26,487 nt of DNA, from positions 1 through 26,487 of the IMG/VR virus record IMGVR_UViG_3300042456_000074. The stretch is one strand, 5' to 3'. Below the pieces are notes generated by a model, which was not told the DNA's origin, did not search any database, and saw only the letters and a list, made by a program, of their open reading frames with translations. Below are positions 2,795-23,283 of this stretch, one piece after another (positions within the stretch are counted from its first letter, which is position 1; each line of letters begins with the position of its first letter). The position numbers were made by a program, and so were the translations under genes. Source of the DNA: a virus.

Positions 2795-3733
2795 ATGGTA
2801 GCAGTATCTGTGCGTGACCAGATTCACTGGCACGAGTTGAGATTAAAACACATCGGCGCAAGCGAAGTCGCCGCGCTCTTCGACATGTCCCCGTTCACGA
2901 CGCTCTGGCAGTTGTGGATGGAGAAGTCTGGCAAGCTGCCGCCCGAAGATCTCTCGGGCAACAAGTTTATTCAGGCAGGCACCTTCCTTGAAAGCGGCAT
3001 CGCTAACTGGGCGGCGCACCGTTGGGACATGAAGATCGATAAGGTCGTCGATTACTTCACGGCGGACGACTGCCTCGGCATGGGCGCATCGCTGGACTTC
3101 CAGACGGACGGTGGTCACCCGGTCGAGATCAAGTGGTCGGCCTACGGTGACGGCTGGGAATACGAAGGTGAGACGATCACCTGCGCTCCCGACAATTACG
3201 TCCTGCAGGTTCAGCACCAGATGGCATGCACTGGCGCTGAGTATGGCTGGCTGATTGCGCTGCTCCGTAACGAGCCGCGCCGCATGAAGATCCCTCGCAG
3301 TGAGGAGATAATTTTTAAAATTAAATCCGAGGTTGCGAATTTCTGGGACAGCATCCGGGCAGGCCAAGAGCCCCCGGTGGACTTCGATAAGGACGGGGAC
3401 GCCGTTGTGCGCCTGCTGGACTTCGTGCCCATGTCTGAGGTGACGCTCACCACGGAGCATGCCCACTTGTTCCAGACGTATCTGGAGAACGCTGCGATTG
3501 AGAAGGAGGCCAAGGCCAAGAAGGAGGCAGCGAAGACCGAGCTTCTGACCCTCAGCATTGAGGCGATGGGGAAGATGAACACGTCGCAGGAGAAGGCCGT
3601 CGTTAAGTGCGGCGACCACAAGCTGTCGATCAGCACCGTGAAGGCGTCGGTTGGCACGGAGATCACGGAGCAGATGATCGGCGAGTTCTACGGCGCTCGT
3701 TCTGGCTACAAGAAAGTAACGGTGTCTAAATGA
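2795..3733 (+). CDS. YqaJ-family (lambda Exo-like) recombinase exonuclease
   Basis: Expected to resect double-stranded DNA ends and hand the single strand to the RecT annealase encoded two genes downstream. The 312-aa protein begins with the family signature HIGASEVAALFDMSPF (19-34), followed by LWMEKSGK (40-47) and AGTFLESGI (61-69) with an acidic residue at E66. The catalytic D-(x9)-E-x-K is D101 (SLDF) and E111-I-K113 (VEIK). The supporting motif YVLQVQHQMACTG (135-147) follows. A lysine/alanine-rich helical region (about 225-265) and a C-terminal tail complete it. Length is usual for phage YqaJ proteins. GGAGG sits 4 nt before the start. The stop overlaps the next ATG as ATGA (3730-3733). 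Confidence 0.93.
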   Translation: MVAVSVRDQIHWHELRLKHIGASEVAALFDMSPFTTLWQLWMEKSGKLPPEDLSGNKFIQAGTFLESGIANWAAHRWDMKIDKVVDYFTADDCLGMGASLDFQTDGGHPVEIKWSAYGDGWEYEGETITCAPDNYVLQVQHQMACTGAEYGWLIALLRNEPRRMKIPRSEEIIFKIKSEVANFWDSIRAGQEPPVDFDKDGDAVVRLLDFVPMSEVTLTTEHAHLFQTYLENAAIEKEAKAKKEAAKTELLTLSIEAMGKMNTSQEKAVVKCGDHKLSISTVKASVGTEITEQMIGEFYGARSGYKKVTVSK

Positions 3734-3915
3734 TAAGGTACACTACGATTAGAAAAGACAGCGTGATGATGCGGGTCGACCGTATGTTGCTGGCACAGCT
3801 TCGCTCACTGGCTGGGCGTCACCCATTGAAACCCACCCTGCGCGCCACGGTCGAGCGCGCCATCGAACTCATGATTGAAGATCTTGAAGAGGAACTGAGC
3901 AATGCAAACAAGTAA
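3730..3915 (+). CDS. small ribbon-helix-helix-like DNA-binding protein, 61 aa
   Basis: Residues 9-50 follow the CopG/Arc-like plan: a short strand (KDSVMMRVDR), a helix (LLAQLRSLAGR), a turn, then a second helix (RATVERAIELMIEDLEEEL). The ATVERAIELMI segment is typical of RHH proteins. It would act as a dimeric DNA binder, either a repressor of this operon or an accessory recombination factor. It is sandwiched between exonuclease and annealase with overlaps on both sides (ATGA at 3730; 14 nt with RecT), so it is cotranslated with them. Start 3730 is chosen for the coupling. ATG codons at 3766 and 3769 are alternatives that would leave out the N-terminal strand start. The family assignment is by pattern only. 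Confidence 0.6.
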   Translation: MIRYTTIRKDSVMMRVDRMLLAQLRSLAGRHPLKPTLRATVERAIELMIEDLEEELSNANK

Positions 3916-4942
3916 TCTTCCCGCCAAGCCGATGGATCGGTTCAAGCAGGAACTCGCCATGCGCGAGAGCCACCTGCGCAGCCTCCTGCCGCAGTCCATG
4001 ACCGTCGATAAGTTCCAAGGCATCGTCGTGGCCGCCGTGGCTGACAACATGGACCTGCTGGAGTGTGATCGCGGCTCGCTCCTGAAGGCGTGCCTGAGCG
4101 CCGCAGAACTGGGCCTGAGCCTCAACAAGAGCATGGGTGAGGCTGACATCCTGAAGGTGTGGGACAACCGCCTGAAGAAGAACGTGGCGCAATTCCGGCC
4201 CCGCTATAAGGGCCTGATGAAGCTGGCCATGCAGTCGGGTGAAGTGCTGAAGATCGAGAGCCGGCTGGTCCACGAGAACGATGTGTTCGAGGTGGAAGAA
4301 GGACTGGACTCGCGCATCGTTCACAAGCACGGCCTGTCCAATCGCGGCGCGATGGTCGGTGCCTACTGCGTGTGGAAGCTGAAGAACGGCGAGACCCAGT
4401 TCGAGGTGATGAACAAGGAGCAGATCCTTGCCATCCGTGACCGCTCATCGGCCAAGACTAAGGACGGCAACATCGTCGGCCCGTGGAAGACGGACGAAGC
4501 CGAGATGTGGCGCAAGACCGTGGTTCGCCGGGCCAGCAAGTATATGCCGCTCTCGACCGAAGCGCAGCGCGCCGTGGCCGTGGACAATCAGGCGGAAGGC
4601 GTGATCGAAGCTGACGAGTATGCCGGCAGCGAGGTCGACATCACGGACTTCGATGAGACCCCGGCTGCGGAAGTGCAGGTGCAGAACCTCGAAGAGAAGC
4701 TGGCCGCCAAGACAACGGCAGCGCCACGCCAGAAGAAGGAACTTCACATCGACATTCTGGAGCCGCAGGAAGAAGGCGACATGGTCGATTGGGATGGCTG
4801 GTGCGAAGCCGCATGCGACATCGTCGCGAAGCTGACACCGGAAGAGCGCGGCGAGTGGCGGGAACTGCACAACGGCTATCTCGACGAAGCCGAACTGATG
4901 GCACCGCGCGGCGCCTTGAAGCTGCGCAAACTGTTTAACTGA
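3902..4942 (+). CDS. recT: RecT-family single-strand annealing protein
   Basis: The 346-aa protein is a RecT/Red-beta-type annealase, partner of the YqaJ exonuclease. Recognisable family blocks are SLLKACLSAAELGLSLN (59-75), the early RecT helix pair. Then QFRPRYKGLMKLAMQSGEV (96-114), the core strand/helix block. Then MWRKTVVRRASKYMPLS (202-218), the late family motif. The C-terminus beyond about residue 245 is acidic and lower in complexity, ending LKLRKLFN, and is probably a species-specific partner-binding tail. GAGGA lies 8 nt before ATG 3902, inside the preceding gene. It acts in replication-linked recombination and end repair of phage DNA. Confidence 0.93.
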   Translation: MQTSNLPAKPMDRFKQELAMRESHLRSLLPQSMTVDKFQGIVVAAVADNMDLLECDRGSLLKACLSAAELGLSLNKSMGEADILKVWDNRLKKNVAQFRPRYKGLMKLAMQSGEVLKIESRLVHENDVFEVEEGLDSRIVHKHGLSNRGAMVGAYCVWKLKNGETQFEVMNKEQILAIRDRSSAKTKDGNIVGPWKTDEAEMWRKTVVRRASKYMPLSTEAQRAVAVDNQAEGVIEADEYAGSEVDITDFDETPAAEVQVQNLEEKLAAKTTAAPRQKKELHIDILEPQEEGDMVDWDGWCEAACDIVAKLTPEERGEWRELHNGYLDEAELMAPRGALKLRKLFN

Positions 4943-5254: not shown

Positions 5255-5282
5255 AGCAGGCGGCCTTAACGGGTCGCCTGCT
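5255..5282. terminator. stem-loop between convergent operons
   Basis: AGCAGGCG (5255-5262) pairs exactly with CGCCTGCT (5275-5282). After one G/T mismatch, CC (5264-5265) pairs with GG (5272-5273), leaving a 6-nt loop. It lies 8 nt after the stop of the SSB-tail gene and overlaps the stop codon of the opposite 1973-aa gene. The position suits a bidirectional terminator, but neither side has a clear U-tract, so termination may need a factor or be weak. Confidence 0.5.
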
Positions 5283-8200
5283 CCACCTGATTATAGACCC
5301 GGTTGAAGCGCACGAACTCACCGTCGATCCGCTCCCGAAGAACCTCAAGCCGCTCCGCCTTCGTGCCCTCATCTATGTCCAGATTTTGAATGCGCTTGCG
5401 CTCTTCGTTCAGCTTTTTAACCGCCGCGCGCGTCGAAGTCAGGGCCGACTGAATCCGCGGGCTGGTTTCCGTCGGAAACTTTTCAATCAGCGCCCGACGC
5501 TCAGCCCCGGTCGAATCCTTCAACTGCTGGTTCACAACGCGCGCCTTCTCTTCGCGCTCGTAATACTCACCGACGTTCCTGCCCTTGCCCGGCTGACCGA
5601 CAAGGCGCCGGACCACAGGGGCCGCCACAGCGTCGCCTTCGCTTCCCGTCCGGTAGAGAGACTTGGCGAGGTTGGTCACGCCACCAAGGGAGAACTCTAG
5701 GAGATACTCGAAGCTCTCGGCGGGCACGTTTAGGTTGCCCTTAACCTTGCCCTCACCGCCGGTTATGTCATTCAAGAACTGAGAGAATTCCTTGTAGCCT
5801 TCGGGCGTGTTGTATCGAGCCACGGAGGCGTATGACTGCCCCTTGTCGAACGGCTCATTGTAGATCGGCTTGCCCATGAAGTTCTCATTCAAGGCGAGTT
5901 CCGTCAGCGGTTTGAACACGGTCGGCGTTGCCGCCCGGGCAACGGAGCTTGTGGCATTGCCGGCACTGAACTGCACTGGAGAGAAGTTCCCGAGCGCAGC
6001 GGTCACGATATCGATCCCAGCGGCGCCAAGGTCGTCACCGCGGCGGGCCGCGTCCATTGTCCGGGTGGCCAGATACGGGAAGAAGCCGAAGCCATAGGGC
6101 ATCGGGATCTTCACGTAGGTCTTACCGTCGACGGGGTTCATAATGATAAGGTTGCGCTCTTTCTCGTAGTCCGGGATCTTATCCCAGAAGAGTTTGCCGT
6201 CATCGTCTTCGTCGGACATCGCCGCGTTGGCAGCCGCGAGTGTGGCAGCCGTGGCCATCATACCAAGCAGCGCCGCCTGAGTGCTCGACAGCTTGCCGGT
6301 CTTGAACGGGTTGTTCGACAGCGCCCGCGCCGTGCGGACACTACCCTGAACCCCTGCATTGAAGAAGGCGTAAAGCGCATTAAGCAGGGCGCCAGCCTCG
6401 CCGCGCCGGTTGAAATCCACGGTCGCCTCACGGGAAAGCATGGCCGCCTGTTCGCGGCTCATGTTGAGTTCGAGCGCGGCACGGTAAGCGGCGAAGCGGA
6501 TACCGTTCTCGAAGATGGCGTTGGTGTTTTCCAGAGCCCCGACCATAGCGCGGAAGCTCTTACTCGTGGGCTTCCACAGAGCGTCAATGGTCTGCTTAGC
6601 GCCCTTGGCATCCTTGATGTCCTTCAGCCTTTCGTCGAGCGTCTTCAGATCATCCTGAATGCGGGCGGCAGCCTCTTGCGGAGTCTCACGCTGTGCCCAC
6701 GACACTGATCCACCGTCCAGTTTGAACTGCTCATACTGCTTGCGCAGGTTGGGATCCCCGCCTGCGCGGCCATACTCGAAAGCCGCGATAGTGCGGAACG
6801 CCTTCCTGTCCCTCGCGAACTTTCTGAAAGCCTTGGACAGCCCCGGAGCATCAGCTGCAAGGTTCAGCGCCGCAGACTGCAGATCGCGGAAGATGTTAGG
6901 CACAAAGAAGTCCGGGTTCGCCGTGGTGAACGAGCGCGACAGCAGGCGCGTCACCTTGTTTGAGAACTCTAGGAACGCATTCATCTGCGTCGGGTTCAGG
7001 TTCTTCGCAGCCTTCGCAAGCAGGGGATCGTTGATACGCACATAGAACGTATCGCCGCCGCGCTTCACGATCATGAAGTTCGGATCGAAGGGCGATGGAC
7101 GCTGGGGGTTCCCGTTCTTATCGCGCGGAGGATTGCGGTCACTGAAGACGCGCCATTCATTGGACGGATTGCCGATGAAGAAATCCATCATCTTCTGGCC
7201 GACGCGATTGCGCTCGCCGCGAATGATGCGAGCGCCGACGTCAGAGACGAACGTGCCATACGGGGAGAAGGGCAAAGTCTTGCGACCGCGACGCTGACGC
7301 CACTCGTTCTTGGTGATGGAGAAGCCAGCGCCGCCGGACATCATCTGCTCATAAGCATCCCCCTGATCGTCCATCAAAGCGAAGTCGGCGTCAGAGAGGG
7401 ATTGCCCCGGTTTGGTGGCACCCTTTACCGGAACATAATGAGGGATTGCCTTGAACATTTCGTCGGCAATCTTGCGCGACTTCACGCCGCGAGCAACGTC
7501 GTTGTCCAACGTCCACTTCACGGAGTCCCGATGCACCTTGGCAATGTCTTTCCAAGCCTGCCCCTTGGTTCCGTTCTCCAACTGATCCGTTTCTTCAAAG
7601 GCATCCTTGTTGGAAATGCCAGACGCGGACAGCAGCGGCGAGCCCGTCTTTTGATATTCAGCGAGGATGGCCGCATCAATCGCCGGGTCAGGGTGTGACC
7701 AGCGCGGCTGATCCGGGGTCCAGTCCCGCTCACGCTGGTTCATGTCGAAGTTTGGATTCGTGCCATTGACCTTGACCATGAGGGTCGGGTCGCCGTCCTT
7801 CTTCCTGACAAGACGACTGATTTCCCGCATCTCAAAGTCGGCGTTTATTTCCGGAGCCGCCTTGGAGTAGAGATACAGATCGATGTCGTTCATCCCGAAG
7901 CCGGCCTCGCGGGCGATCTCCTTGATCTTCTTACCGAAGTCCCGCTCGAACTTTTGCATCAGTTCGCCGGCACGGCTGTCGAACTTACGTGCCGCCTCGT
8001 AGAAACCCTCAAAGCCAGCGGCCAGTTGGCCAAGGCTCTGCACAACGCGCAGGCGCTCAAAGCGGTCAACCAGCTTGCGAGAGTAGCGTTGAGCGCGCGT
8101 TTCTTTTGGCAGCACGACGCCGGGCTGCGGCGCTGATGGAGGCTGCTGCGGCGGAGGCGGAGGCGTTGGGGTTTTTGGCGGCGGGGGCGGCGCGGGCGGA

Positions 8201-11187
8201 GGCGTCGGAGGTTTTGGCGCAGGGGGCTGTTGCGGCAGCGGAGGCGAGGGAGGCGCCGGGGGCTGCTGCGGAGGTGTTGGCGGTGCGGGCGGAGGCGTCG
8301 GGGGCTGCTGCGGAGGGGGCGTTCCAACACCAACACCGGGCGCCCCAAGGACGCGCGCCGCACCAGTGGTCACATCGGCAACGTCTTGCTGACCTTCAGG
8401 AATAACCCTGTCGGAAATTTCAATCAGTCGAGCCAGCGCATTCTGGTCCTTGGGCCCAACACCGAGCAGCTTGCCGATGTAGCGCACAAAGTCGGTGAAC
8501 GCATTACCCGTCTTGGTCGGGATGGTCTTCAGATAGTTCTGGAAGTTGCTATCAGTCAGGCCCCATGCGAGAATCTCGTTGGGGTCTTGACGATAAATCC
8601 TGTACTTCTTACTCCATCCGAGCGTTCCTGCTTTCTCGTCTTCACGCATTCTCTTTGCGATTACTTTAGACAGAGATTTTAAATCTTCAACCGCCTTGCT
8701 TATATTGGAATCAGGCGGAAGCCTATCCTGATACGTGATGCCAAGAGCGGTCACAGCATGAATAAGTTCATGCGCCAGAAACCGCTCAGAGACACCGGGG
8801 TTCTTAAAATCCATACCACCAACAACGACACTCATAGATGTGTTCGATGGACTCCATGCAGCTACGCCGCTCCAAGTTGGATTAAGATAGACTCCGGGAA
8901 CACCCTCCTTGTTCTTAGTCGCAACGCCAATGCCGAGCCGTATCCCGGCCTTCTCGAACTCATCCAAAATGTTTGCAACGCGCGGCATGATGGTGCGAGT
9001 GGTGTCGAGGACCGCAGTCTTACCCAATTGGCGAGCCACCTGCGGCATCGTCTTGCCGCCGATCATCTTCTGAATTTTGGCAGTCGCAGTCTCTGCAGCG
9101 GCAAACTGCTCAGGCGTAATCGGCCCGACGTCATCAATCGGAGTGGCGGATATAGCCCCACTCGGAGGTGTTATATTAATTGGACCGGACGGCGTCTCGA
9201 CAGACGAAGGCGCAACGGCAGCGCGCGCGGCAGGCGCAGATACAACCGGAATAGATTTGCCCTGAAAAAACGCCTCAGTGAAGTTATCCGACGACGCGCG
9301 CCCGCCTTCGCTGACGAGGCTCGAACCAAAATCAAGAATCTTTCCGTCATTCAAAGATCTTGCCCGCTGGCCACTGCTACCAAAGACATGAACTGGAACG
9401 GGTTGATCGCCATTGAGCTCCCGAATCACCATCATGCGATGGCGACCGTCGTGACCGCTGACCTTGCCCGTCTCAAAATCTACATTTAAGAATGGGGAGC
9501 CTACAGGTTTCCCTGAAGAGATCTCCTTGGTGAGATAATCAAGGCTACTCTGCTTCGGCGCCTCCAGATCGGCGGCAAGTTCAAGAAACTTGGACGGCCT
9601 CATCATCGCTGTGAACCCTCTGTAGTCCACATTCTGATTTAAAGGCACCTGACCAATGCCGGATTCCTGATCGAACGTAACAACGCCAACCTGCGAACGC
9701 TTCTCTGTGTTATCGGGAGCCGGCGCAGCGGGAACCACAGGTGCGGGCTCAGTCTCCGCCGCCCGCGCAGATTCGCCACCCTGACGTCGAGCAAACTCAG
9801 CCTCGATCTCAGGCCCAAAGTTTGCCGCATACTGCTGCATCTCAAGATCGCCGGGCGTGTCACCGCGACCTTCGCCAGCAAGATAACGCTCAACGTAAGA
9901 CTGAGGCGTCAACCCGGCAGGCGTTTCAACCGGCGGCGTAGGCGTTCCCCGCGTCGCATCCCACTCCTCACGGGGGACGTACCGAATGCTGCCATCCGGG
10001 CTTTCAATGATTACCAGATCATCTTCAATGATGACGGTATCTTCAGGGCCTGCGATAACAGGGGTGGGGCTGGGGCCAGCCGTAGGCTCAGTAGGAGCGC
10101 CGAAAGGCGTAACCGGGACGCCGGGCTCAGGCTCAGGCTCTCCAGTCGGCGGCGGCGGCTCTGCTCCCGGCTCTGCTTCCGGCCCACGCAGGCCGCTAAT
10201 ACCACCAGCCCCGCCGCCCATCGTACCGCCAAGGATCAGACCAGCAGCCGCGCGACCACCGAGACCCTCCGTCAGAGCGACGTTCGGATCGATGGCCTGA
10301 GCGCCAACATTCTCAGCAACGCCCTGACCAGTTTCCTGAACCAGTTCGGTGCCGCCTTCACGGATAGCGCCCTCAGCACCGCCGCGAACAACGCCACGGC
10401 GCAGGCCGCCTGTCAGCAGCGCGGCTTCAAGACCAAGCGGGCCAGTGGCGGCTGCAATCGGAGCGGCGATGGCGGCAGCGCGGCGGGCTGCGGAAACAGC
10501 GGCAGCCTCAATAGCCTCTTCCGGCGTTGCGCCAGCGGCAATCGCCTCGCGATAAGCAGTGGACCGCGCGACAGCCTCCGGGGGCATCTGCTTCACACGA
10601 TCATAGGTGGTCTGCGCCGCGTCGCCACCAACGATGGCAGCTTCGCCAGTGGCGGCGCCCGCCAGAGCGCCACGCTTTGCTGCCTGCTGGCCAATCAGAC
10701 GCCCAGCCAGAGCGCGACCAGCGAGACCGGCGCCGCCCGTACCAATCATAGCCGGCACCGTCTGAGCAATGCCAGCGGCCAGCGACAGGGGATCGGTGAG
10801 CAGTTCTTTGGCCTGTTGCCCGAAGGCCGCAAGCTGACCTTCCTTCTCGGCCTCTGCCACGCGCTCTGCCTGCTGACGCTGGCGCTCACGGAATGCTTCC
10901 GTCTGGAGCTCTTCGCCGAACTCCTCAACGGCTTTGCCGGCGCGCGTGGAGATGTTATCCATGTCGCCGGTAGCGAGCCCGTAAAGGACACCCGGAAGGC
11001 CAATGACTTGGCTACCGACGCCGCGAACGGCAGCGCCACCTACATCACGGAGGAAAGAGGTTTCAGCTTTCGGAATGCTCGCGGCATTTGCCTGCACGTA
11101 TGCGATGGCGTCCTGTTGGGTTGCCCCTTCAGGTGCGTTCACCTCATACATTGTTCCATCTGGGGATTTAACGCGGAACCTAGGCAT
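5266..11187 (-). CDS. giant polyvalent virion protein, 1973 aa, with zincin motif and LPD38-like region
   Basis: Probably a virion protein delivered with the DNA, in the place where short-tailed phages keep their largest internal (ejection) protein. Architecture: a small N-terminal beta domain (1-40, MPRFRVKSPDG). Then a long Ala/Gly-rich amphipathic region (about 50-330). Then a Pro/Glu-rich linker. Then a ParB-like segment with D580-G-R-H-R584. Then a metallopeptidase-like block with H806-E-L-I-H810. Then a poly-proline hinge (about 953-1025). Then a long C-terminal region resembling large polyvalent protein-associated domain LPD38, with NPDFFVPNIFRDLQSA (near 1423) and a KIPMPYGFGFFPYLATRT block (near 1692). 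The stop is inside the convergent stem-loop. Start ATG 11187 follows TAGGGTCC at 4 nt, 14 nt after the preceding gene. Domain names are from pattern recognition; enzyme activity is unproven. Confidence 0.85.
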   Translation of the reverse strand: MPRFRVKSPDGTMYEVNAPEGATQQDAIAYVQANAASIPKAETSFLRDVGGAAVRGVGSQVIGLPGVLYGLATGDMDNISTRAGKAVEEFGEELQTEAFRERQRQQAERVAEAEKEGQLAAFGQQAKELLTDPLSLAAGIAQTVPAMIGTGGAGLAGRALAGRLIGQQAAKRGALAGAATGEAAIVGGDAAQTTYDRVKQMPPEAVARSTAYREAIAAGATPEEAIEAAAVSAARRAAAIAAPIAAATGPLGLEAALLTGGLRRGVVRGGAEGAIREGGTELVQETGQGVAENVGAQAIDPNVALTEGLGGRAAAGLILGGTMGGGAGGISGLRGPEAEPGAEPPPPTGEPEPEPGVPVTPFGAPTEPTAGPSPTPVIAGPEDTVIIEDDLVIIESPDGSIRYVPREEWDATRGTPTPPVETPAGLTPQSYVERYLAGEGRGDTPGDLEMQQYAANFGPEIEAEFARRQGGESARAAETEPAPVVPAAPAPDNTEKRSQVGVVTFDQESGIGQVPLNQNVDYRGFTAMMRPSKFLELAADLEAPKQSSLDYLTKEISSGKPVGSPFLNVDFETGKVSGHDGRHRMMVIRELNGDQPVPVHVFGSSGQRARSLNDGKILDFGSSLVSEGGRASSDNFTEAFFQGKSIPVVSAPAARAAVAPSSVETPSGPINITPPSGAISATPIDDVGPITPEQFAAAETATAKIQKMIGGKTMPQVARQLGKTAVLDTTRTIMPRVANILDEFEKAGIRLGIGVATKNKEGVPGVYLNPTWSGVAAWSPSNTSMSVVVGGMDFKNPGVSERFLAHELIHAVTALGITYQDRLPPDSNISKAVEDLKSLSKVIAKRMREDEKAGTLGWSKKYRIYRQDPNEILAWGLTDSNFQNYLKTIPTKTGNAFTDFVRYIGKLLGVGPKDQNALARLIEISDRVIPEGQQDVADVTTGAARVLGAPGVGVGTPPPQQPPTPPPAPPTPPQQPPAPPSPPLPQQPPAPKPPTPPPAPPPPPKTPTPPPPPQQPPSAPQPGVVLPKETRAQRYSRKLVDRFERLRVVQSLGQLAAGFEGFYEAARKFDSRAGELMQKFERDFGKKIKEIAREAGFGMNDIDLYLYSKAAPEINADFEMREISRLVRKKDGDPTLMVKVNGTNPNFDMNQRERDWTPDQPRWSHPDPAIDAAILAEYQKTGSPLLSASGISNKDAFEETDQLENGTKGQAWKDIAKVHRDSVKWTLDNDVARGVKSRKIADEMFKAIPHYVPVKGATKPGQSLSDADFALMDDQGDAYEQMMSGGAGFSITKNEWRQRRGRKTLPFSPYGTFVSDVGARIIRGERNRVGQKMMDFFIGNPSNEWRVFSDRNPPRDKNGNPQRPSPFDPNFMIVKRGGDTFYVRINDPLLAKAAKNLNPTQMNAFLEFSNKVTRLLSRSFTTANPDFFVPNIFRDLQSAALNLAADAPGLSKAFRKFARDRKAFRTIAAFEYGRAGGDPNLRKQYEQFKLDGGSVSWAQRETPQEAAARIQDDLKTLDERLKDIKDAKGAKQTIDALWKPTSKSFRAMVGALENTNAIFENGIRFAAYRAALELNMSREQAAMLSREATVDFNRRGEAGALLNALYAFFNAGVQGSVRTARALSNNPFKTGKLSSTQAALLGMMATAATLAAANAAMSDEDDDGKLFWDKIPDYEKERNLIIMNPVDGKTYVKIPMPYGFGFFPYLATRTMDAARRGDDLGAAGIDIVTAALGNFSPVQFSAGNATSSVARAATPTVFKPLTELALNENFMGKPIYNEPFDKGQSYASVARYNTPEGYKEFSQFLNDITGGEGKVKGNLNVPAESFEYLLEFSLGGVTNLAKSLYRTGSEGDAVAAPVVRRLVGQPGKGRNVGEYYEREEKARVVNQQLKDSTGAERRALIEKFPTETSPRIQSALTSTRAAVKKLNEERKRIQNLDIDEGTKAERLEVLRERIDGEFVRFNRVYNQVEQATR

Positions 11188-19881: not shown

Positions 19882-20214
19882 TCATTTTACCGCTACCGCG
19901 TCTTTCCATGCCTCAATGGTCAGCCGGTGTTTCTCCGCGCAGTCGTTCCTGCGTTCGATCAGGTCTTTTTCCCACAGCAGCCGGGCTGGGTCGAGAAATG
20001 GCTTGGGCGGATTGTTTAACAGGGAACACGGGCTCGCCAGATTGGACGGCGGCGGCTTCAGTGTTTGGATTACCGATGACTTCGAGGAGCACCCGGACAG
20101 CGTCGTCAGGAGGAGCGCAGCTGGCAGCAGCGGCAGGCACCGTGTGGTAAATCTCACGAATGGTGTTGATCCGTTCGACGGAGCGCACATCGGCAGCGGC
20201 GCGTGTTTCTTCAT
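19882..20214 (-). CDS. Rz1: Rz1-like outer-membrane spanin lipoprotein (nested in Rz)
   Basis: The o-spanin lies in an alternative frame inside Rz and runs 31 nt past its stop. It has a hydrophobic stretch LPLLPAALLLTTLSGC with lipobox L-S-G-C (cysteine 42 from this start), so it should be lipidated and held in the outer membrane. The mature part is proline-bearing (LKPPPSNLASPC, NNPPKPFLDP) and ends in a charged helix, the expected Rz1 composition. The start is uncertain. ATG 20214 gives MKKHAP with AAAGG 9 nt upstream. GTG 20157 gives a cleaner 23-residue signal but no good ribosome site. It works with Rz to fuse inner and outer membranes at lysis. Confidence 0.8.
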   Translation of the reverse strand: MKKHAPLPMCAPSNGSTPFVRFTTRCLPLLPAALLLTTLSGCSSKSSVIQTLKPPPSNLASPCSLLNNPPKPFLDPARLLWEKDLIERRNDCAEKHRLTIEAWKDAVAVK

Positions 20215-20398
20215 ATTCTGCGGCCTTTGTATCGAGGATGACATCCGCTTTGGCACGTTGCTTTCCCGCCTTTTCCAGAGCCTTTGCATACGCCGCGTTG
20301 CACTGCCAATCGCGGACTTTGTATCCTGCGACCGCGCCGACAACGAGAGCGCCTGCCGCCGCATAAAGCATGATCGGGTTAGGGATCACGGCATCCAC
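19913..20398 (-). CDS. Rz: Rz-like inner-membrane spanin (i-spanin), 161 aa
   Basis: N-terminal transmembrane helix MLYAAAGALVVGAVAGYKV (10-28) followed by a long periplasmic helical region (about 35-90) with coiled-coil character, then CAPPDDAVRVLLEV as in other Rz proteins. The C-terminus is proline/arginine-rich and would bind Rz1. GTG at 20398 is the start; the gene overlaps the end of the endolysin by 13 nt. The presence of an embedded lipoprotein frame (Rz1) supports the call independently. Its job is the last step of lysis, disruption of the outer membrane, after holin and endolysin have acted. Confidence 0.85.
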   Translation of the reverse strand: MDAVIPNPIMLYAAAGALVVGAVAGYKVRDWQCNAAYAKALEKAGKQRAKADVILDTKAAEYEETRAAADVRSVERINTIREIYHTVPAAAASCAPPDDAVRVLLEVIGNPNTEAAAVQSGEPVFPVKQSAQAISRPSPAAVGKRPDRTQERLRGETPADH

Positions 20399-21000
20399 CC
20401 GGCAAACTTCTTCGTCTTCAGCTTGCGATCATCGAGGCCGTGTGTGCCGCCGTTGATGCGCTTCGTCAGCGCGAGAATGGCGGCGTCGTTGATGCCCTGA
20501 TCACAGATCGACCACAGCTTATTCCTGTCGAAGAACCACAGCGCCGACTCGAAGCAGAGCTCATTCGCAACCAGATCGGGGTTGGTCATCACGTCCGGGC
20601 GGTCGATGTAGTCCGCGAACGCCTGATAGTTCGCGTTGCCCGTCAGCTGCAACGCGCCGCGACCGCGATACTTCCAGCCGTCGCCAGACGCCTCGACACT
20701 GTTGCCCATGCGGCTGGCATAGACGCGGTTGGCGATCTTCTGGGGCTGGCGCGCATATGCCTTGGCCATATCTTCCGTAGGGAAATACTTACCGAAGATG
20801 CCGCGCAGGCCGGGAGCGCCGTAGTTCAGGTTCTCGCTGAAGGCCGTGAAGTTTCCTGACTCGTGCGCCGTCTGGGCGAAGAAGTGCGCAGCGCGGCTCT
20901 TATTCAGCTTGTAGTAGGCCGCAGCAGCCTTGAGCGTGCCCGGACCGAACGCACCGTCAGCGGTAACGCCGATCTTTTTCTGGAGGTCTACGAGGCTCAT
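20386..21000 (-). CDS. endolysin, glycoside hydrolase family 19 (chitinase-like) muramidase
   Basis: Degrades peptidoglycan at lysis. Residues 3-28 (LVDLQKKIGVTADGAFGPGT...) look like a short peptidoglycan-binding helix pair. The catalytic domain begins HFFAQTAHESGNF (39-51), where E47 is the expected catalytic acid, followed by SENLNY (55-60). Then GIFGKYFP, SGDGWKYRGRGALQLTG and TKRINGGTHGLDDR follow, all standard GH19 endolysin blocks. No signal peptide or SAR domain is seen, so release depends on a holin. At 204 aa it is of usual length. The start overlaps the previous stop as ATGA (20997-21000). The C-terminus, ending KFAGWMP, is complete. Confidence 0.93.
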   Translation of the reverse strand: MSLVDLQKKIGVTADGAFGPGTLKAAAAYYKLNKSRAAHFFAQTAHESGNFTAFSENLNYGAPGLRGIFGKYFPTEDMAKAYARQPQKIANRVYASRMGNSVEASGDGWKYRGRGALQLTGNANYQAFADYIDRPDVMTNPDLVANELCFESALWFFDRNKLWSICDQGINDAAILALTKRINGGTHGLDDRKLKTKKFAGWMP

Positions 21001-21618: not shown

Positions 21619-21840
21619 TCAGTTAGGTTGTCGGTCAGCCACCTGCTGCAGACGATCTTCAATCCGCCTCAGGTGAATGATCATCTCATCAAAGCGCCGG
21701 TCAATTAACTGGAAGCGTTCGTCGCCAAACTGCAAACGTGTCTCCAGCTTCGTCAACCGATTGCTCAGCGTCGTCCATACACCGATCAGGCCACCAACAA
21801 ATGTCAGGACCGTTACGATTGTGTTGATGTCGACCATCAT
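21619..21840 (-). CDS. small membrane protein with long coiled-coil, 73 aa
   Basis: N-terminal transmembrane helix (INTIVTVLTFVGGLIGVWTTL, 5-25) followed by a continuous coiled-coil (about 27-70) with regular hydrophobic heptads (LTKLETRLQFGDERF, RRFDEMIIHLRRIEDRL). The N-out/C-in or reverse topology cannot be told. ATG 21840 forms TAATG with the stop of the gene above. Proteins of this shape are common in phage lysis blocks, often with unproven holin or antiholin roles. Its partner by shape is the 53-aa protein downstream of the EF-hand gene. Confidence 0.62.
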   Translation of the reverse strand: MMVDINTIVTVLTFVGGLIGVWTTLSNRLTKLETRLQFGDERFQLIDRRFDEMIIHLRRIEDRLQQVADRQPN

Positions 21841-22202
21841 TATCGAAGGTTTCGCAGTTTATAGATGGCAGAGAGATAGACCGCCGTGAGGGTATCGATC
21901 AGATTCCCAACGGCGCGATTGCCCTTGGAGATCTTTTCGTGATTCGCCTCGATCCACTGAGCGTCAGCCTCTAGGCACTTCAGGCTGTCGCTCATCGTCT
22001 GCTCAGGAACCGGAATGGCGCCGATCAGCGAGAACGCGCCCTGATACGCTTCGACAAGCGGATCGATGGTGTCGATCACGCCGTCGTAGAATTCGCCCAG
22101 AGCCATGTGCTTGGCGAAACTGCCCTCACCCTTGGCGCGCCAATGCTCGAAGTGCGCCAGATTGCGTGCATAAAACACGCGAGAGATGAGTTCCTCAATC
22201 AT
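21840..22202 (-). CDS. Dps/ferritin-like protein, 120 aa
   Basis: The protein is all-helical in pattern. The core matches the ferroxidase part of E. coli Dps: H20-W-x-x-K-G25, H32, ID44, D47-x3-E51 correspond to H51-W-x-x-R-G56, H63, ID75, D78-x3-E82 with identical spacing. One ligand (Dps D67) falls on G36, with E37 next to it. Phage proteins of this sort are usually filed as unknown (I believe as DUF5856, from memory). It could bind iron or be a ferritin-fold protein without activity; the function is not proven. It is coupled by ATGA to the upstream gene and by TAATG to the downstream gene. At 120 aa it is shorter than Dps (about 165), losing the N-terminal tail and part of the last helix. 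Confidence 0.65.
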   Translation of the reverse strand: MIEELISRVFYARNLAHFEHWRAKGEGSFAKHMALGEFYDGVIDTIDPLVEAYQGAFSLIGAIPVPEQTMSDSLKCLEADAQWIEANHEKISKGNRAVGNLIDTLTAVYLSAIYKLRNLR

Positions 22203-22897
22203 CAGGCGATCCGCATCACAGGGCAGATGATCGACGGAATTGCCGGCGCGATGGCGCCTGCTGCGAAATGCTCAATCGTTACGGCCACGTTTTCCGGCAA
22301 CCACATGATCTCGATGTACTGGCCTGCGGTAACAGTATCAAAGAAACTCAGACTGAAAATAGCAGCACCGCCGTCAGCAGCCTTCGGAATGTTCACAATC
22401 GTGGCGGAGTTTGCAATGTTGGTGCCGTTCTTGCGGAACCAGACGGTCGCGTCGTGATCGTTCGAGTCGGTGTTCTTAAACTGAATCGACGGTGCCAGCA
22501 TGTACGTGCCAGCAGCCGTGAACGTGATCTGCGTGCTGGCCACGACGCTGATCCCAGTGCCGGTCAGGTCGGTGTTAAACGTCACAGCGGTGGCGGCTGC
22601 CACGTTGCCGGTCTGATCTGTGGTGCTCGAAGGCTGAGCGAACGCGCGACCCGCCAGATCGGCGAATGGCACTGTCGCTGCTGCTGTAAACGCGGAGGTG
22701 CCGTTGCCCTTGACGTAGCCCGTGAGCGTTGACGCGCCCGTGCCGCCGGTCGCAACCGTGCGCACGTTCGATGCCGACGCCGCGATATCAGAGGCCGCCA
22801 CCTTACGGCTGGCGCCGCCCTGAACGATTTCCAGAAGCTCCGTACCGGCCAGCGGCGTGCTCGCTGCGGTAAGGTCCGTGATCTTTACGTTAGCCAA
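22202..22897 (-). CDS. fibre-like protein with C1q/TNF-like C-terminal beta domain, 231 aa
   Basis: The N-terminus (MANVKITDLTAASTPLAGTELLEIVQGGASRKV, positions 1-33) matches the virion-anchoring start of many phage tail fibres. It is followed by a GGTGASTLTGYVKGNG hinge (about 51-66). The C-terminal 130 residues form a beta-sandwich-like domain (ITFTAAGTYMLAPSIQFKN, ATVWFRKNGT, YIEIMWLPENVAVTIEHF). This resembles C1q/TNF-like trimeric heads. The start is TTG 22897, read with GGGAGG 5 nt upstream; no ATG or GTG is better placed. It is probably a short fibre or head decoration. Confidence 0.75.
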   Translation of the reverse strand: MANVKITDLTAASTPLAGTELLEIVQGGASRKVAASDIAASASNVRTVATGGTGASTLTGYVKGNGTSAFTAAATVPFADLAGRAFAQPSSTTDQTGNVAAATAVTFNTDLTGTGISVVASTQITFTAAGTYMLAPSIQFKNTDSNDHDATVWFRKNGTNIANSATIVNIPKAADGGAAIFSLSFFDTVTAGQYIEIMWLPENVAVTIEHFAAGAIAPAIPSIICPVMRIA

Positions 22898-22956: not shown

Positions 22957-23283
22957 TCACGCACCCCACGGCAGCGGTGGGGTTACGACCGGCGGGTTGA
23001 TCTGGTCGCCAATCTGCGTAGCGACGTTAGCTTCGTAAGCAGCGACCTGCTCTTCGCCCATTGCGCTCTGCACCCAGCCGATCACCTGCTCTTGCGTCAG
23101 GTCAGCGTAAGGCGTGAACGGAGCGTCTGGGTCAACCGTCACACCAGCAGAGCCATACACACCAGCGGTGTAGGTGCCATCCGTGCCGGTCAGCGTCCAG
23201 TGGACGGTGAAGACCACATCGGTCTCGCCGTCGAGTTCGGGGTAGGCGTTCATCTGGACAACTGCCCAAGTGTTTGTAATCAT
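22957..23283 (-). CDS. hypothetical phage tail-region protein, 108 aa
   Basis: Small acidic protein with a beta-rich N-terminus (WAVVQMNAYPELDGETDVVFTVHWTLTGTDG). It also has a helical segment with the pattern LTQEQVIGWVQSAMGEEQVAAYEANVATQI, and a proline-rich end (NPPVVTPPLPWGA). Proteins like this lie near tail fibre genes in many phages. No function is known to me, although a fibre-assembly or accessory role is possible. The start ATG 23283 has GGAGA 7 nt upstream. A gap of 13 nt separates it from the glycine-rich gene above. Confidence 0.75.
   Translation of the reverse strand: MITNTWAVVQMNAYPELDGETDVVFTVHWTLTGTDGTYTAGVYGSAGVTVDPDAPFTPYADLTQEQVIGWVQSAMGEEQVAAYEANVATQIGDQINPPVVTPPLPWGA

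Follow-up and report, generated by a model that had tools for sequence, protein, structure and literature searches.

The 120-residue protein discussed here, encoded where the tail-fibre-like genes of the window meet its lysis genes (by the window we mean the whole 26,487-base virus record analysed), is best explained as a short Dps-type mini-ferritin that is produced late in infection and probably oxidises Fe(II), a reading to which we assign a probability of about 0.6. The protein belongs to a phage family known in Pfam as DUF5856 (PF19174; 49.3 bits against a cut-off of 34.6, E 1.1e-12) and in PHROGs as phrog_858, 'starvation-inducible transcriptional regulator' (E 3.2e-13), and all 33 aligned members match the PF19174 model at the E-value limit used. 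NCBIfam holds no model that matches this family. The Pfam Ferritin/Dps model PF00210 gave no match to the protein at E <= 1 and none in a genome search at E 0.001, and probing viral contigs with E. coli Dps by way of exact peptide patterns did not find relatives.

The first-pass annotation of this DNA had described the 120-residue ORF, which is present, and had noted that H20, H32, D47 and E51 are spaced as the ferroxidase ligands H51, H63, D78 and E82. Comparison with the actual E. coli Dps sequence bears this out, the HWxx(K/R)G and ID motifs are common to the two proteins, and the D67 ligand is lost, as G36 falls on its position. The pattern had also been called hard to get by chance, and it is unusual: of 14,283 ORFs outside the family, taken from contigs of the same kinds, five have it (about 3e-4 per 120 residues, or a chance of roughly 1% that one of the ~40 genes of a window shows it), but alone it would not settle the matter. 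When HxxH is added to the four residues, with either loop length, none of the 14,283 non-family ORFs carries the pattern.

The decisive evidence is conservation. The same four residues are conserved in all of 196 unique relatives, and so is H17, which had not been noticed before; these five are the sole zero-entropy columns among 30 representatives with less than 70% pairwise identity. The spacings H17-H20 (3), H32-D47 (15) and D47-E51 (4) are constant in 196/196, with the helix B intervals equal to those of Dps throughout. The interval between H20 and H32 varies between subfamilies (9 in 128, 12 in 66 and 13 in 2 of the 196), as is expected because the A-B loop is variable. The exact Dps spacing of these histidines was thus rejected as a family trait, since 12 is confined to the subfamily of the window and most relatives have 9. 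The column of G36 is mostly non-acidic (G, R, N or A). At the Trp52 position of the conventional Dps centre the window protein has W21, and the 30 representatives have W in 16, L in 10 and F in 4.

The protein almost certainly has a ferritin fold. The AlphaFold2 model, built from the 33-sequence alignment, is a four-helix bundle with helices at 2-21, 28-56, 73-92 and 96-118 (pLDDT 94.6, pTM 0.88), and this check of the fold, which the first-pass annotation had proposed, led to Dps: all 50 of the Foldseek matches listed from the PDB are Dps or Dps-derived, one being a Dps onto which a ferritin E-helix was grafted, with probabilities of 0.99-1.00, TM (query) up to 0.80 and modest E-values of 0.01-0.2. 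A T4-type member (L302, an IMG/VR copy 100% identical to T4 RI.-1) is also modelled as a ferritin-like bundle (pLDDT 88.0), which is less Dps-specific, matching Dps, other ferritin-like proteins and CopM. Aligned with hhalign against 11 Dps proteins, the family profile gave probabilities of 72.7-92.7 depending on the choice of columns, with scores of 34.8 and 45.1, and 30 column-shuffled controls in the setting of the higher score reached at most 19.4. The match places H20/H32/D47/E51 on H51/H63/D78/E82, which is the ligand register. Among BFVD matches, Dps-like folds were also met as parts of longer proteins from phages, annotated as prohead protease, NUDIX hydrolase and ParB/sulfiredoxin, which may represent fusions of mini-ferritin domains, and proteins of giant viruses (Pithovirus, Fadolivirus) are among the Dps-like matches as well.

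E. coli Dps builds site A from H51, H63 and E82' and site B from K48, D67 and D78', and a salt bridge joins K48 to D67 (PMC6150300). The family retains all site A residues and D78', and the K48/D67 pair is replaced by an invariant histidine and a mostly non-acidic residue. E37, beside G36, had been put forward as the stand-in for D67, which we reject because its column is variable (E, K, H, D and others). Invariant H17 is the better candidate, and the alignment suggests that it is likely to be the site B ligand in place of D67, because it sits at K48, the salt-bridge partner of the lost residue. Histidine at this position was considered and rejected as a feature unique to the family: two of the 11 sampled Dps have it, once together with loss of D67 (position 67 is D in 10 and M in one), and the alignment of H. 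pylori NAP also has His at position 48.

From H32, residues D47 and E51 lie 15 and 19 positions further along one helix, or about 22 and 28 A when 1.5 A is taken per residue and the helix boundaries are those of the AlphaFold2 model. At such distances a single site would have to be shared by two subunits, which is how Dps is arranged, and from the predicted helix boundaries we infer that the five residues are placed between subunits. A conserved intersubunit metal site is accordingly very likely. The suggestion that the protein could bind iron stands as regards a metal site, for which conservation gives good support, and iron would be the most likely metal. Without the D67 carboxylate the site may prefer a different metal, and this loss and the extra histidine together would favour softer ones; Zn is what the His-type Dps centres of cyanobacteria bind (PMC7327923). 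The protein could then combine the Dps fold with a conserved Zn (or Mn) site of structural or catalytic function and not be a ferroxidase, in which case a metal-held two-fold dimer would serve as a small virion or assembly component, as might fit with the one member detected in virions and the many encoded among head or tail genes. We consider this unlikely, as iron centres of Dps typically have the two carboxylates and the complete site A set that the family conserves, and the three peptides seen for the virion member do not point to stoichiometric incorporation.

In the mini-ferritin mechanism that we propose, the protein would be made late in infection, and two subunits would pair antiparallel, as in Dps. 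Site A would consist of H20 and H32 of one subunit and E51' of the other, and site B of H17 and D47', with E51' possibly bridging, so that a direct histidine ligand would take the place of the K48-D67 salt bridge. The site would most likely bind Fe(II) and oxidise it with H2O2 or O2, by which Fenton-active iron would be cleared from the late-infected cell, and from the virion where the particle carries the protein. Ferroxidase activity as such we would call an even bet, and assembly into a 12-mer cage is plausible to the same degree; the role would be protection. Condensation of DNA in the manner of E. coli Dps is unlikely to be part of this mechanism.

Many Dps proteins bind DNA, although not all. 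A nucleoid or packaging protein that, like E. coli Dps, acts on the phage DNA itself to condense or protect it would agree with the Dps fold, with the virion detection of one member and with the PHROGs name, which suggests DNA-related roles; it is nevertheless very improbable here. Direct DNA binding is not supported because the Dps N-terminal tail, which is lysine-rich, is absent (helix A starts from residue 2) and the protein is acidic, with a pI of 5.5 and a net charge of -4, equal to the family median. The idea in the first-pass annotation that the protein might protect packaged DNA does not hold for protection by DNA binding, while indirect protection of the virion is still conceivable because a relative, ORF78 of phage LIMEstone1, was detected in virions. 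ORF78 (117 residues, 13.15 kDa; family HMM E 5e-29) has all five residues, carries the record note 'confirmed structural protein', and was detected in purified virions by mass spectrometry with 3 peptides and 28.21% coverage (PMC3296691), which corresponds to 33 of its 117 residues. It may be a minor or co-purified protein. A second relative, g280 of phiR1-37, is annotated 'phage structural protein'. For the phage of the window itself, we consider presence in the virion somewhat less likely than not.

The gene starts with ATG and is joined to both neighbours on the minus strand by one-base overlaps, its start with the stop of the upstream gene (TGATG) and its stop with the start of the downstream gene (TAATG), and lies directly upstream of the lysis genes (Table 1). 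The downstream protein has an apparent N-terminal membrane segment and a coiled coil.

Table 1. Positions in the window of the mini-ferritin gene, its proposed metal-site codons and its neighbours.
Feature	Position	Strand	Basis
Predicted Dps-type mini-ferritin gene, 120 aa, DUF5856 / phrog_858	21840..22202	(-)	Pfam, PHROGs, AF2, Foldseek
Codon of H17, aligns with E. coli Dps K48; proposed ligand in place of D67	22152..22154	(-)	Invariant 196/196; hhalign register
Codon of H20 (= Dps H51), proposed site A ligand	22143..22145	(-)	196/196
Codon of H32 (= Dps H63), proposed site A ligand	22107..22109	(-)	196/196
Codon of G36, at the Dps D67 position	22095..22097	(-)	G 123, R 26, N 18, A 16 of 196
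Codon of D47 (= Dps D78), proposed partner-subunit ligand	22062..22064	(-)	196/196
Codon of E51 (= Dps E82), proposed partner-subunit ligand	22050..22052	(-)	196/196
Upstream gene, weakly tail-fibre-like	22202..22897	(-)	phrog_33320 E 5e-4
Downstream 73-aa gene, possible holin-type	21619..21840	(-)	phrog_12015 E 2.9e-6; holin phrog_1296 E 0.007
Endolysin (GH19-like), one of the lysis genes downstream in the same run	20386..21000	(-)	phrog_181 E 4e-59; PF00182

Other features of the window were also recorded. At 19882-20398 (-) there is a likely Rz/Rz1-type spanin pair in overlapping frames, composed of an Rz-like ORF (20398-19913; phrog_1152 E 0.0015) and, in a different frame, an ORF (20364-19882) with the lipobox-like motif LLLTTLSGC. 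A 108-residue DUF7936 protein (PF25590, E 2e-34) is encoded amid the tail-fibre-like genes at 22957-23283 (-), and at 5266-11187 (-) lies the gene of a 1,973-residue polyvalent protein that contains an LPD38 domain (PF18857, E 1.6e-35) and is probably a multi-domain protein carried in the virion. On the opposite strand, at 2795-4942 (+), a YqaJ/RecE-like exonuclease and a RecT-family annealase lie side by side as a recombination pair of the phage. RNA families were not found in the window.

The position beside lysis genes raises the question of a role in lysis timing, as has been proposed for T4 RI.-1, in which the protein would modulate holin or antiholin, possibly by sensing iron or oxidative state. 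In T4, according to the account of Golec 2010 in PMC6832632, rI.-1 shares an operon with the antiholin gene rI, and the latent period under lysis inhibition becomes slightly longer when rI.-1 is over-expressed. Some relatives likewise adjoin endolysin (L082, L101, L125), lysozyme (L083) or peptidase (L091) genes. However, the T4 effects are slight and were seen on over-expression, phage RaK2 has a homologue but neither holin T nor RI (PMC3622015), and many relatives have other neighbours, namely portal or terminase genes (L086, L096, L107, L133, L094), virion structural protein genes (L106, L110) or a methyltransferase gene (L247, L279). A fixed link to lysis genes was rejected as a rule on account of these lysis, portal, terminase, tail and methyltransferase contexts, and we find the lysis-timing role quite improbable. 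In one laboratory line of T4, rI.-1 is frameshifted (PMC8573959), so the gene is dispensable in the laboratory.

The mini-ferritin reading, if correct, extends well beyond the window. The first query gave 388 matching stretches in viral contigs and other queries added more; relatives were found directly in 22 phage records and via intermediate members in 1,338-1,427, mostly of T4-like phages and Ackermannviridae. T4 rI.-1 (RI.-1, MobD.6) is a member with all five invariant residues, and the family HMM, whose alignment includes T4, scores it at E 1.7e-29; a tblastn chain links it to the family independently of the HMM. About 200 phage proteins, T4 RI.-1 and one detected in purified virions among them, keep the proposed metal-binding residues without change, so many phages probably carry a mini-ferritin of their own. 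In a single-protein query, close relatives in bacterial genome contigs were limited to two 4-kb contigs (L289, L290) in MAGs of Alphaproteobacteria, one of them Beijerinckiaceae, which together with the relatives in Caulobacter phages hint at an alphaproteobacterial host.

Phage-encoded Dps as such is already known, and the PHROGs name of the family implies a likeness to Dps. The literature that we searched covers the field in part; within it, T4 RI.-1 is described only as a lysis-inhibition accessory, DUF5856 is not mentioned, and we found no description of a conserved centre, of H17 as an invariant residue or of how RI.-1 folds. As far as this literature goes, the site and its connection with T4 and the virion thus appear to be unpublished, the existing family labels coming without a site, a mechanism or a T4 or virion link. 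The predicted intersubunit metal site provides a testable biochemical function for a family whose labels read 'unknown function' or 'transcriptional regulator' and which occurs in more than 1,400 phage records and includes a gene of the model phage T4. The predicted metal site together with the virion detection of one member bears on whether phages themselves handle iron and oxidative damage.

Compared with E. coli Dps (PF00210), the window protein shares the four-helix bundle, invariant equivalents of H51/H63/D78/E82 and, according to the model, a geometry that would require an intersubunit site. It differs in being about 45 residues shorter, in the absence of the N-terminal tail, in a shorter B-C connection, in the loss of D67 and in an invariant His in place of K48. 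T4 RI.-1, within the same family, departs from it by a short N-terminal extension, the 9-residue H-H spacing and the neighbouring antiholin gene rI. True Dps proteins are encoded by Lactobacillus phages and gut phages (Gratiaviridae) (PMC8008677), and by Streptomyces phages as well; these are phage-borne and Dps-type like DUF5856, but L300 and L301, the ones examined, have the ordinary centre with D67 in place and, unlike DUF5856, are found with a cellular Dps query. In DpsL and bacterioferritin the canonical site lies within the subunit and uses four Glu and two His over four helices (PMC13168243), whereas the five invariant polar residues of DUF5856 are all on helices A and B. The cyanobacterial His-type Dps (TeDpsA, NpDps4, TlDps1; PMC7327923) resemble the predicted DUF5856 site in having extra histidines in an intersubunit centre. 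In these proteins they occupy Dps position 78 and a place near 164 (TlDps1 numbering; PMC7327923), and in contrast DUF5856 has an invariant Asp (D47) at 78 and its extra His at 48. A speculative extension, which we would not favour at present, makes T4 RI.-1 a metalloenzyme instead of a transcription regulator and DUF5856 a ferritin class peculiar to phages. Its intersubunit centre, with His at Dps 48, would be of a third type, and the protein would travel in the particles of many tailed phages, from T4-like to Caulobacter phages, and disarm or deliver iron in late infection and entry.
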